Below, piece by piece: positions 36,826 to 45,073 of a stretch of 64,000 nucleotides of DNA. The position numbers and the translations under genes are program-made. The notes beneath the pieces were generated by a model. It ran no database searches. It worked only from the letters and a program-made list of their open reading frames with translations, and was not told the DNA's origin. How positions within the stretch are numbered: the stretch's first letter is position 1; each line of letters begins with the position of its first letter. Where the stretch lies: NCBI RefSeq assembly GCF_039645985.1, contig NZ_CP147919.1, positions 1,984,001 to 2,048,000 on the forward strand, given 5' to 3'. The stretch is from Sulfurimonas sp. HSL3-7. GTDB taxonomy: Bacteria > Campylobacterota > Campylobacteria > Campylobacterales > Sulfurimonadaceae.

Positions 36826-38091
36826 ATGGACTACTTAGAAATCACCGGCCCGACCAAGCTTCACGGCAATGTAAAGATCTCAGGCGCAAAAAATGCCGCG
36901 CTGCCGCTCATTGCGATGACACTGCTCGCCAACAACACTGTTAAGATAGGCAATATGCCCTCTGTCGTCGATATCAAGACGTTATTAAAACTGATAGAGA
37001 ACCTTGGCGGCACATTCTCGTTTAAAGACGAAAACACTGTAGAGATCAATACCTGCTGCCTTACCAACACCAAAGCAACCTACGAGATTGTCAAAACAAT
37101 GCGCGCCTCCATCCTGGTCCTTGGCCCGCTGCTTTCGCGTTTCGGCCACTGCGAGGTCTCTCTTCCGGGCGGCTGTGCCATCGGCCAGCGTCCGATCGAT
37201 CTGCATCTCAAAGCACTGGAGCAGATGGGTGCCAAGATCACGATCCATGCCGGTTACGTCCAGGCCGAAGCACCGGACGGTCTTAAAGGCGCGCACATCA
37301 TCTTTGACAAGATCACCGTCACAGGAACCGCCAATGTCATCATGGCCGCCGCCCTTGCCAAAGGAAAGACCACCATTACCAATGCGGCCCGCGAACCCGA
37401 AGTTGTCCAGCTCTGTGAAGTGCTTAAGAACAGCGGTGTCTCCATAGAAGGGATCGGTACAGCAGAACTTGCCATCTACGGCACCGACAGACGCCTGGTC
37501 GACATCGACCCTTTTGATGTCATTCCCGATCGTATCGAGGCGGGAACGTACCTCTGTGCTGCCGGCATAAGCGACTCGACCGTCACCCTGGAGAATGTCC
37601 GTCCCGATCATCTTGAGGCGGTTACCGGGAAGTTGGAGGAGATGGGATTTACCTTTGATATTACCGAAAACACAATGACCATCCACCCTACCGACACGAT
37701 CAAATCCGTCAATATTGTCACGCAGGAGTATCCGGGCTTTCCGACGGACATGCAGGCGCAGTTTTTGGCGTTGGCGACACAGGCCCACGGGACATCTACG
37801 ATAGAAGAACGTCTTTTTGAAAACCGCTTTATGCATGTGAGCGAACTGCAGCGTCTGGGTGCGGACATCAAACTCAGCGGCCATACCGCAACGGTGATCG
37901 GCCCCTCGCAGCTTTCCGGAACCGATGTCATGGCAACCGATCTTCGCGCCTCAAGTGCGATGGTGATCGCCGCCAATATTGCCGAAGGCGTGACACAGGT
38001 GCACCGTATCTATCATCTTGACCGAGGGTATGAGAACCTGGAGAAAAAGCTGGGAGATCTCGGAGCAAAGATCGAGCGCCTTCGCGAATAG
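36826..38091 (+). CDS. murA: UDP-N-acetylglucosamine 1-carboxyvinyltransferase
   Basis: 421 residues. It transfers enolpyruvate from PEP to UDP-GlcNAc, the first committed step of peptidoglycan synthesis. The catalytic loop [14 protein letters not shown] has C117, the residue that fosfomycin alkylates in sensitive MurA enzymes. N-terminal [18 protein letters not shown] and the [12 protein letters not shown] segment are conserved. Confidence 0.96.
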
Positions 38092-38255
38092 CTTTTACCG
38101 CATTTGGATGCGGCAAAAAGCGGCCAAAAGTGCTTCTCTCTACAAACACCCTCAAAAATACCCGTAAATAGTTCTATTCCGACATCTTAGTAAATGGTAA
38201 TATATTTGGATTGGAGAAAGGTGGCGAAAGCTTACCGAAAACCAAGCTGACACAC

Positions 38256-38365
38256 TTAAAAGTTTTAGTCTTAGTGCAGATTGTGCGGAAGTGATCCCGA
38301 AGACGTACATCGGTACGTTGAGAGGTGAACTTCAGTGCAAGATGCGCTGAAATTAGAACTTTTAA
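38256..38365 (+). ncRNA. Structured intergenic element, copy A (three-tier hairpin)
   Basis: The outer arms, TTAAAAGTTTTAGTCTTAG and its distal partner, pair over ~23 positions with several G-T pairs. The middle stem is TTGTGCGGAAGT with ACTTCAGTGCAA. The inner stem is ACGTAC-atcg-GTACGT. Internal loops carry GATCCCGAAG and GAGAGGTGAA. Most non-Watson-Crick pairs are G-U only if the plus strand is the RNA. The 3' edge covers the hspR stop codon. Copy B at 43427 shares the core but not the stem sequences. Confidence 0.6.
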
Positions 38366-38742
38366 TCGTCGGTGAAGATCACCATTTCGTAATGACTGCG
38401 CTTTGTCACCAGTGATTTTTCCGGCGGTACAGAACCGGTATTGCGGGCGACAGAAAGGGCATGACGAAGTTCGGCAATCTCTTTCTCCATCTCTTCCATC
38501 TGCTCTTTCAGACGAAGGGCGACATCCACCCCCGCCAAATTCACGCCCAGTTCCCGGGTAAGACGCAAAATCATTTTGATACGGTCTATGTCACGCTGGG
38601 AATAAAGGCGGATACGACCGTCTGACCGCGAAGGGGTAATCAGGTTTTCACGCTCATACTGACGCAGTGTCTGTGGATGGATATCAAGGATCTTTGCCAC
38701 AATACTGATCAGGTAAGCCGGTTCATCGTAATGGTGCATCAT
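38362..38742 (-). CDS. hspR: HspR-like MerR-family heat-shock repressor
   Basis: 126 residues. The N-terminal MerR winged helix has the HspR hallmarks (LISIVAKILDIHPQTLRQYERENLITPSRS), with a C-terminal coiled coil (EQMEEMEKEIAELRHAL). It represses chaperone operons through HAIR elements. AAGGAG precedes the ATG, 11 nt after cbpA. A HAIR-like sequence overlaps the promoter of the pair, implying autoregulation. Confidence 0.92.
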   Translation of the reverse strand: MMHHYDEPAYLISIVAKILDIHPQTLRQYERENLITPSRSDGRIRLYSQRDIDRIKMILRLTRELGVNLAGVDVALRLKEQMEEMEKEIAELRHALSVARNTGSVPPEKSLVTKRSHYEMVIFTDD

Positions 38743-42337: not shown

Positions 42338-42543
42338 TACGATTCATCCTTTCTGTGTTTTTTCATGATAATACAAAAGCGTTTAAAACAGCTTAATAGA
42401 ACAATGCCATTGAACACGGCGATGAATAGGAAATTGGCGATAAAAGAGTTATTGCAAGGCAGGCACGTCAAAAATAAAGCGGACAAGGACATTAAAACAG
42501 ATCCCGTATCGCTCTGTTGTTTTAACGTCCCGACCCACTCCAC
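42337..42543 (-). CDS. Possible small membrane protein between DUF2231 and GGDEF genes
   Basis: 68 codons from GTG 42543, which overlaps the DUF2231 stop by one base; the stop overlaps the GGDEF start (TAATG). Two hydrophobic stretches (LMSLSALFLTCLPC and FIANFLFIAVFNGIVLLSCF) would make a two-helix membrane protein. An internal ATG at codon 18 has GGGA upstream and is an alternative start. Exact nesting between two genes and reasonable codon use favour reality, but no family is recognised. Confidence 0.45.
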   Translation of the reverse strand: MEWVGTLKQQSDTGSVLMSLSALFLTCLPCNNSFIANFLFIAVFNGIVLLSCFKRFCIIMKKHRKDES

Positions 42544-43301
42544 TAAGGTTTGGAACTGTTAGCGTCACCGCTTTTTGTCTTGTTTGGAGCGGCACTGCCG
42601 TTTAGATCGGTTTTTATGACGGTATCAGACGCATTCGCATCTACCGTTACACCTTGAGTACCGTTTGTATCGGGTGGCGTTTGAACAGCGGTAGCATTTG
42701 TTTCAGCAAACGTCAGGTTACAATCTGAATATCGCTCTTTGAGTGCGGCCAACTCCTCTTCACAGCTGCTTTGAAGTGTGTCGATATCTTCTTCCAGCGT
42801 TTCGATTTTATCTTCGAGAAGCTGTTGTGAGCTGACATTGGCACCATAACTGTAAACAAGCTCTCCGCCCTTTTTTGCCTGAAAAAAAGTCAAAGCGATC
42901 AAAATAATCAGCCCCAGCGAGTAGAGCGCCCTGCTCCACCCTTTTTTGACAAAGAGGCTTAGCACCTTCAGCAACAGAGGCAAAAGCGTCAGATAGACAA
43001 GATAGGTGCCAAGGATCTTATGCCCTTTGAGGGCCTCTTTGCCTTCATCGCTCAAAAACAGGCCGGCCTCTGTGCCGTCGGTCACGCCGGTAATGTAAGC
43101 GGCTACAAACAGACCTATGAGAAGGATAAACAGAACATAGACCGAAATACTCAAGGCCTTGCGTTTCGTGATCAGATTGATCAGCTCCAAAATCATAATA
43201 ACAAGCGGAAGAACCACGGCAAAGTGAACCGCGATGGGGTGTAACAGCACAGGAACAGTATCGGTGATCTCAATAGGAAGTGTAATGGCAGGTAGGTTCA
43301 T
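42543..43301 (-). CDS. DUF2231-like membrane protein with C-terminal coiled coil
   Basis: 252 residues. Four helices in the first ~150 residues with LHPIAVHFAVVLPLVIMILEL matching the HPxxVHFP-type DUF2231 signature, a coiled coil (~160-195: LEDKIETLEEDIDTLQSSCEEELAALK), and a low-complexity Thr/Asn/Ala tail. DUF2231 proteins are thought to be haem/redox-linked membrane proteins; the role here is unknown. Confidence 0.75.
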   Translation of the reverse strand: MNLPAITLPIEITDTVPVLLHPIAVHFAVVLPLVIMILELINLITKRKALSISVYVLFILLIGLFVAAYITGVTDGTEAGLFLSDEGKEALKGHKILGTYLVYLTLLPLLLKVLSLFVKKGWSRALYSLGLIILIALTFFQAKKGGELVYSYGANVSSQQLLEDKIETLEEDIDTLQSSCEEELAALKERYSDCNLTFAETNATAVQTPPDTNGTQGVTVDANASDTVIKTDLNGSAAPNKTKSGDANSSKP

Positions 43302-43426: not shown

Positions 43427-43538
43427 GCCTGCAGCTTTAGATTTAGTATAGATAGTACGAGAGTGAACCCGAAGGCGTACATCGGTACGTCAAGAGGTGA
43501 ACTCTCGTACAAGATATGCTGAAGCTAACGCTTCAGGC
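43427..43538 (+). ncRNA. Structured intergenic element, copy B (three-tier hairpin)
   Basis: Outer arms begin GCCTGCAGCTTTAG and pair with the segment ending in CTTCAGGC over ~24 positions, 19 matched plus two G-T pairs. The middle stem GTACGAGAGT/ACTCTCGTAC is a perfect 10 bp. The inner stem is GGCGTAC-atcg-GTACGTC. The core GAACCCGAAG ... AAGAGGTGAAC is nearly identical to copy A although stem sequences differ. The right edge touches the purH stop codon. Confidence 0.6.
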
Positions 43539-45073
43539 TAGTGGAGGAAGTGGCGGACTTCCGAGAAGTAGAGGGCCATGCCGAACTCATTGGCCGCTTC
43601 GATCACCTCATCGTCACGGATCGAACCGCCCGGTTCGATCACCGTTTTGACGCCGGCTGTCTGCGCCGCATCGATCGAGTCGCGGAACGGGAAGAACGCT
43701 TCGGAGGCAAGCGCCGCACCCGAAACATCGAGGCCCATCTCTTTGGCTTTTTTGAGCGCACACTGGGAAGCATCGACGCGTGAGGTCATCCCCATACCGA
43801 CAGCCACCATTGCCGCATCTTTGACATAGACGACACAGTTCGATTTGGTAAGAGAAGCGATTTTATAGGCGATCTCTGCATCTTTCAACTCTGCTTCTGT
43901 CGCCGCGCGTTCTGAGACTAGTTTCGCATTTTTGACTTCGTCCGCACCGACTTTGTCGGCATCCTGGAAGACGAATCCGCCGTCGATGTGCTTGAAGTCT
44001 TTGGCGTCGTTGGCAAGAACGATCTTGTCCGCGCCGTACTCAAAGAGTTTGATACGTTTTTTCTTCTCGAACACCGCCTGCGCCTCTTCGGTAATACGGC
44101 CGGCGATCACCACTTCAAGGAAGATCTCGTTCATCTTCTCGGCTAGTTCCGCGTCAACAACGCCGTTTACGGCAACGACACCGCCGAATGCGGAAACAGG
44201 ATCGCATTTGAGCGCTTCGGCATACGCTTCTGTCAGGTTGTCGCGGATCGCGAAACCGCACGGGTTGCCGTGTTTGCAGATAACAACGGCGTTCTCATCG
44301 CCGAAGGCCGCTGCGATCTTGACCGCACCGTTAAGGTCATTCAGGTTGTTGAAGCTCGCCTCCCCTTTGAGTGTCTTGAAGTTCTTGCTGAAGTAGTTGT
44401 CGAACTCGTAAAGCGCCCCTTTCTGGTGCGGGTTCTCGCCGTAACGCGTATCCATCACCTTCTTTCCGACGATGAACTGCTTCTCGCCGAAGCCCTGGTT
44501 GAAACGGCTGTTCATGTAATTGGCGATCATACTGTCGTAGGCTGCCGTGTGTTCATAGGCTTTGATCATAAGACCGCGGCGGAACTCGACCGTGTTGGTG
44601 TCGTTCTCAATCGCATTCAATACAAGCGAATAGTCTGCAACATCGGTAACGATCATCACACTGTCAAAGTTTTTCGCCGCAGAACGGACCATTGCCGGTC
44701 CGCCGATGTCGATGTTCTCGATGATATCTTCGAAGTCATCTGTTTTTTCAATCGTCTCTTTGAACGGGTACAGGTTGACACAGACCAGGTCGATCGCCTC
44801 GACACCAAGCTCTTTGGCCTGGTCAAGATGCGACTGCTTGTCACGTCGGTGAAGGATACCGCCGTGGATGAACGGGTTCAATGTTTTGACACGTCCCTCA
44901 AAGCACTCAGGAAACTTCGTGATCTCATCGATTTCGATCGCCGGCACACCGGCCTCTTTCAACATCTTGAAGGTACCACCTGTCGAGATGATCTCAAAAT
45001 CATTCGCAACAAGAGACTTTGCGAACTCAACAATATTACTTTTATCACTTACACTCAAAAGGGCGCGTTTCAT
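43538..45073 (-). CDS. purH: Bifunctional AICAR transformylase / IMP cyclohydrolase
   Basis: 511 residues. N-terminal IMP cyclohydrolase (MGS-like fold, ~1-195: [48 protein letters not shown]) and C-terminal transformylase (~200-511: [33 protein letters not shown]). It carries out the last two steps of de novo IMP synthesis. AAGG ribosome-binding site. Confidence 0.97.

Follow-up and report, generated by a model that had tools for sequence, protein, structure and literature searches.

REP elements mobilized by RAYT or TIRYT transposases (the GTAG- and CGTC-tagged repeats) are dispersed, intergenic and palindromic, are often found at the 3' ends of genes and are thought to serve as folded single-stranded DNA substrates; the REP unit measures 20-40 bp (PMC3733652). 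Integron attC sites lie directly after a stop codon, with the folded strand antisense to the gene and the structure conserved better than the sequence. MITE-like repeats such as RUP, BOX, Correia and ERIC are non-autonomous, foldable and about 100 bp long, and the structured non-coding RNA families in Rfam are recognized by covarying helices and conserved internal loops.

The element described here resembles all of these and differs from each of them. Compared with the 20-40 bp of REPs it is a longer unit, of ~108 nt, with a fold that covaries across families, a fixed 3' junction and a strict replication polarity, and it has no copies at Y1 transposase genes. Unlike attC sites, it is found at housekeeping genes and not in cassette arrays, and its variable part lies in the middle of the stem instead of at the tip; an attC identity was rejected, the RYYYAAC/GTTRRRY boxes being present at the hairpin foot in 0 of 69 copies. 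Whereas RUP, BOX, Correia and ERIC are defined by their sequence and often come with target duplications, the element is held together by an order-wide fold, and neither a duplication nor a parent transposon was found for it. In contrast to the structured RNA families, it has no Rfam match and no promoter signal. Copies A and B of the element gave no match to Rfam at the gathering threshold, nor at E<=10, and no description of it was found in the literature searched, so that the remark in an earlier note on this DNA that no named family could be recognized is correct for Rfam 15 and for that literature.

A small dispersed palindromic element is an already known kind; the combination of an order-wide covarying fold on one strand with stop-codon abutment and replication polarity is displayed by no known member that can be named. 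This structured and apparently undescribed element occurs in at least five families, which would include well-studied genera. Its strict polarity and exact placement at stop codons connect replication, transcription ends and small-repeat spread in a way that can be tested, and its single-copy guaA and porB sites provide a simple route to testing function.

The fold and the strand that forms it

The window, i.e. the whole stretch of 64,000 nucleotides that was analysed, contains copy A at 38256-38365 and copy B at 43427-43538, exactly where the earlier note had placed them, both with the structured strand on the + strand. Copy A is antisense to hspR (38362-38742, - strand), which encodes a MerR-type heat-shock repressor, and overlaps the hspR stop codon with its 3' end. 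Copy B is antisense to purH (43538-45073, - strand), which encodes the AICAR transformylase/IMP cyclohydrolase; here the copy ends, on its 3' side, directly against the purH stop codon. On the 5' side, copy A is faced by a convergent murA-type gene of the EPSP synthase family (36826-38091, + strand) and copy B by a gene for a DUF2231 membrane protein (42543-43301, - strand). Folded as RNA, the + strands of copies A and B reach -49.3 and -56.8 kcal/mol, respectively, with z-scores of -8.6 and an equally good fold in 0 of 200 shuffles; the complement strands are weaker, at -26.4 kcal/mol for copy A and -41.8 kcal/mol for copy B.

The unit folds into one long, rod-like hairpin whose mismatches are conserved. 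From the foot upward, ~12 bp lead to an A·G mismatch and a further 9 bp to a 2x2 GA/AG loop, which is followed by a longer variable stem; above this stem are an internal loop of the GAA/GA type that includes a bulged base, a tip of 6-8 bp and a loop of 3-4 nt. In copy A, the 5' half of the GA/AG loop is CAGATTG at 38277-38283 (+ strand; partner CAAGAT at 38338-38343) and the apical internal loop is CCCGAAG at 38296-38302 (+ strand; partner GAGAGG at 38320-38325). The earlier description gave three stems with two internal loops; in place of two loops there are four conserved irregularities, namely: the A·G mismatch; the 2x2 GA/AG loop; a second tandem G·A/A·G; and the 3x2 GAA/GA apical loop with its bulge. 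The second tandem is present in most of the genus copies and is replaced by Watson-Crick pairs in the other genus copies and in other genera. Wobble pairs are conserved at fixed positions of the fold, one U·G pair being present in 15 of 15 order-wide sequences and in 44 of the 51 sequences of the genus alignment. The middle stems of copies A and B are dissimilar and still paired in each, as had been reported, and this is true of the element at large: helix lengths and loop motifs are constant across families while the stems change, with whole-stem swaps between copies that lack intermediates.

Neither of the outcomes that the earlier note had named as refuting was obtained: further copies exist, and the stem changes among them also keep pairing. 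In the genus alignment, 94.3% of the cells pair and two-sided changes are seen at 29 of 44 pairs; these values are reached by 0 of 500 shuffles, and the signal is lost when the partners are slid. In a second, independent alignment, made from 15 copies of other genera, 93.9% of the cells pair and 33 of 43 pairs are changed on both sides, again with 0 of 500 shuffles as good. G·U occupies 354 cells of the genus alignment, as against 76 for A·C (40 of them at one loop position), and the G·U positions change almost solely to G-C or A-U and rarely to other mismatches. In addition, the element strand folds more stably than its complement in 68 of 69 copies from the genus (mean of -50.6 vs. -32.1 kcal/mol) and in 21 of 21 listed copies from other genera, and DNA folding parameters also favour it. 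Because G·U pairs far outnumber A·C pairs, pairing is selected on one strand, the element strand. A mutational strand bias behind the G·U excess was rejected by reasoning, since C-to-T changes in the coding strand would leave the G·U pairs on the opposite one. That G·U serves as a pair favours RNA as the active molecule, with single-stranded DNA, whose parameters also favour this strand, as the other candidate. Selection on a folded RNA or single-stranded DNA, as first suggested from copies A and B, is supported by covariation, strand-specific use of G·U and order-wide conservation.

Some copies carry additional sequence. A palindromic insert of ~20 nt, TACCCGAAGGGGCAGACCC, occupies the same 3'-arm site in L018, L021, L022, L029, L034, L144 and L152, and its reverse complement lies at another place in L028, giving a hairpin within a hairpin. 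The 5' arm of copies L020 and L034 has an insert of ~37 nt of the CAAGGAAACATCGCTACGCGAGCGGTACCCTTG type. The apical part is enlarged in L034, L072, L168, L174, L289 and L290, with the rod layout below unchanged. Tandem copies ~107-131 bp apart were seen in L055, L065, L066 and L178 (~350 bp in L178, beside a tRNA cluster).

The 5' flanks have features of their own. Many genus copies have on that side a spacer, a short hairpin (AAAGATGGCGAAGCTCATCTT type) and an array of 7-bp tandem repeats. In the window, the short hairpin AGGTGGCGAAAGCTTACC at 38219-38236 (no strand assigned) is of the type seen 5' of many copies and is terminator-like on the - strand. The arrays (5' flanks of L018-L066; G000:C1:17111) keep a constant period with a locus-specific unit, e.g. 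GGTGAAT, GTTAAGN, GTAAAGC or GATGTTG, among others. Another repeated hairpin, of the GATTCCTGCCTTCGCAGGAATGACGG type, occurs near elements in the 5' flanks of L037, L051, L057, L060, L064, L067, L071 and L075.

Distribution, gene ends and replication polarity

BLAST with copy A identifies 19 places in the 2.87-Mb source genome. The covariance model search that the earlier note had proposed, using a model (R1) based on 51 copies from the genus and its near relatives, brings this to about 32 distinct places, each counted once in its better orientation and the weakest near E = 0.002. By BLAST, 7 of 7 sampled genus-mates have copies, with at least 7 to 17 matches each, and other genera have few copies or none; over its sampled genomes the genus has dozens of copies. 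The core pattern also matches 29 contigs of metagenome assemblies assigned to 'Helicobacteraceae/Campylobacterales'. A second model (R2), built without copies from the source genus and used under strict filters, has matches in 65 of 397 genomes of the phylum, from 17 genera and five families. Outside the genus, there are one to seven copies per genome, in at least five families of the Campylobacterales. Plasmids, phages and viral contigs gave no match to the element. The groups g2, f9 and g28 referred to below appear to be Sulfurimonas-like, Arcobacter-like and Campylobacter-like, respectively.

In 62 of 68 copies from the genus, the 3'-side gene converges on the element, i.e. lies on the opposite strand, with its stop mostly -5 to +3 nt from the end of the element. 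Further copies of the source genome agree with this, except L135, whose 3' gene was not called, and two exceptions in the same genome (L023 and L032) look from their flanks like gene-calling artefacts. Gene frames that run 12 nt into the element stop inside it, at CTA or TTA on the element strand. The element strand is usually antisense to its neighbour, with the 3' end at the stop codon, as at hspR and purH here, and the orientation of the 5'-side gene is mixed (30 same, 31 opposite). Nearly all of the g2 copies checked lie at the 3' end of porB, the exceptions being one beside another gene (G413), tRNA-adjacent matches (G324) and weaker matches (G008), and the f9 copies checked lie at the 3' end of guaA. 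In a few cases, rpsK or a tRNA is the neighbour. About half of the g28 copies read in G209 and G238 are in the sense orientation, 22-25 nt ahead of a start codon (queC, nifU and a flagellar rod gene), and the remaining ones are antisense, at or near gene ends.

The element is present at the hspR stop codon in all 5 genus genomes whose neighbourhood was read (G000, G001, G003, G005 and G007). In the other sampled genera hspR is without it, and in several of them a convergent murA-type gene lies within a few nt. The hspR copy was gained within the genus and has since been kept there, its changes being paired ones. At porB and guaA, the element has been retained through whole clades. Four g28 genomes have 6-7 matches each. 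Recent spread is indicated by the near-identity of several g28 copies in G209 and G238, and by the 20-nt secondary insert and 5' flank that several copies in the source genome have in common. The nifS-nifU interval holds a diverged copy common to two species, one of which has an extra copy at the nifS end; a partial empty site at the nifS end of one genome is suggestive only. A clean empty site with a target duplication was not recovered, nor was a target duplication seen in the flanks inspected by eye.

Skew and gene bias in the source genome were taken from 20 sampled segments and the window. The GC skew locates the origin near 0 and the terminus at about 1.45 Mb. Below 1.2 Mb there are 15 copies, every one of them on the - strand, and above 1.59 Mb there are 17, every one on the + strand, so that 32 of 32 have one polarity with respect to replication. 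About 58% of the sampled genes are on the leading strand, and gene orientation alone would give 32/32 with p ~3e-8, a rough value given that highly expressed genes are more biased and that old copies are tied to the history of the genome. In G209 and G238, where the relations to genes are mixed, the polarity is kept in 10 of 11 copies (p = 0.006 against a coin, one copy near the terminus having been left out). Local skew is consistent with it in 19 of 20 other genomes, in which gene orientation confounds the comparison. In polarity, the element strand corresponds to the nascent lagging strand or, equivalently, to the leading-strand template. This is opposite to IS200/IS605 transposons and many retrohoming group II introns, whose active strand is on the lagging-strand template.

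A probable spreading element or a possible host RNA

Probably we are dealing with a small element that spreads, with a folded RNA, or with something that is both. Of the identities first proposed for copies A and B (a small RNA, a mobile hairpin or a protein-binding element), the mobile hairpin is favoured by the polarity, the lineage-specific spread and the lack of a promoter, and a host role is possible at the porB and guaA sites. Our leading reading, put forward tentatively, is that copies A and B belong to a small (~108 bp) non-autonomous dispersed element of the Campylobacterales, whose folded element strand is the working form and whose spread is specific to one replication strand. The folded single strand would spread via the replication fork: as RNA or single-stranded DNA, it might anneal to the lagging-strand template through its 3' end, which would then be extended into the gene, and such annealing and extension would account for the polarity seen and for a 3' junction that is fixed. 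Only the polarity points to insertion in the lagging strand; alternatively, long hairpins may be tolerated only if the lagging-strand template is not the strand that folds strongly. Insertions would persist where they fall just outside coding sequence, and recognition of the GA/AG and GAA/GA loops and of the G·U pairs by a protein would let the loops stay while the stems drift. Against this mobile reading, no mobilizing enzyme was found, Y1 transposases and reverse transcriptases being absent from the g28 genomes with recent copies, and retention through whole clades at porB and guaA is unusual for a purely mobile repeat; the failure to recover a clean empty site and the lack of matches in plasmids, phages and viral contigs also speak against it. 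From the old copies at these genes it would seem that the element may by now be needed by the host too.

A host-functional folded RNA is possible, if on balance doubtful, as an account of the whole. The element strand would be transcribed toward the 3' end of the neighbour and act as a small RNA or as a hairpin bound by a protein or RNase, the expansions being secondary. Constant helix lengths and loop motifs despite changing stems would be expected of it, and the service of G·U as a pair, with other mismatches avoided, is typical of RNA; the clade-wide retention of single guaA and porB copies and the sense copies of g28 in 5' leaders also agree with such a role. The replication polarity is left unexplained, however, and a 5' gene that lies either way offers no consistent source of read-through. 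Furthermore, a -10-like motif is not enriched upstream of 29 sites in other genera, and a small RNA with its own promoter was rejected on this ground. For the old copies taken separately, a host RNA role is nearly as likely as mobility. An enzyme-free copying of the hairpin into the nascent lagging strand at gene ends by means of host replication, in which the folded form is as old as the order and some copies are host-functional, is unlikely.

Read in the sense of the gene, the element could instead be a 3'-UTR hairpin that acts as a terminator, a protector of mRNA ends or a REP-like brake on translation termination. Its complement does abut the stop codon and folds better than shuffles (z-scores of -4.5 and -6.1), and E. 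coli REPs within 15 nt of a stop codon are reported to stall ribosomes (PMC12306157). We give this explanation a small chance, as in nearly all cases the gene-sense strand folds less well, and it has A·C where the other strand has G·U, its 3' arm is A-rich and not U-rich in L162, L174 and L266-L269, a separate terminator-like hairpin follows many genus copies, and several g28 copies are away from 3' ends. An intrinsic terminator was rejected in its own right: the strand is wrong, there is no constant U tract, and the 3' arm of several copies is A-rich in gene sense.

An even slimmer chance attaches to a neutral inverted repeat, whose arms would be matched by template switching during replication (quasipalindrome correction) with no selected fold. 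Hairpins can arise and persist through template switching (PMC8794818), which in E. coli is stronger on the leading strand (PMC6357072) and could in this way link the covariation with replication; stem swaps without intermediates are also in line with it. Yet it would erase the G·A, A·G and G·U irregularities, which are among the most conserved parts of the fold, and it explains neither the abutment to stop codons nor the spread. Template switching may drive the whole-stem swaps, and selection on the fold is still needed because the conserved mismatches would otherwise be removed.

Transposases and reverse transcriptases

Mobilization as a REP element by a RAYT or TIRYT (IS200/IS605-type Y1) transposase is very improbable: the source genome does have two Y1 transposase genes, of ~225-270 aa (L295 and L296), but both are flanked by TIRYT-like terminal inverted repeats of 22-36 nt unrelated to the element, none of the 22 Y1 loci tested has a match to the element model, and PF01797 is absent from G209, G238, G250 and G403, which have multi-copy g28-type elements.

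A retron partner was likewise rejected, as the reverse transcriptase of the genus has its own conserved upstream ncRNA-like fold and 14 other element-bearing genomes are without a reverse transcriptase. This single enzyme, conserved in the genus (L199:4166-5740, at ~240.7-242.2 kb of G000:C1; orthologues L200-L205), is retron-type and scores below the NCBIfam retron cut-offs. Upstream of its gene lies a compact msr-msd-like fold that is likewise conserved (AGGCAGTAGC...CTGCCT). The protein has a long C-terminal extension with a probable membrane helix and a PEGA-like end that is not called by Pfam, and the PEGA-like domain is also found in lipoprotein-like proteins, at L220 (G008) and L224 (G085).
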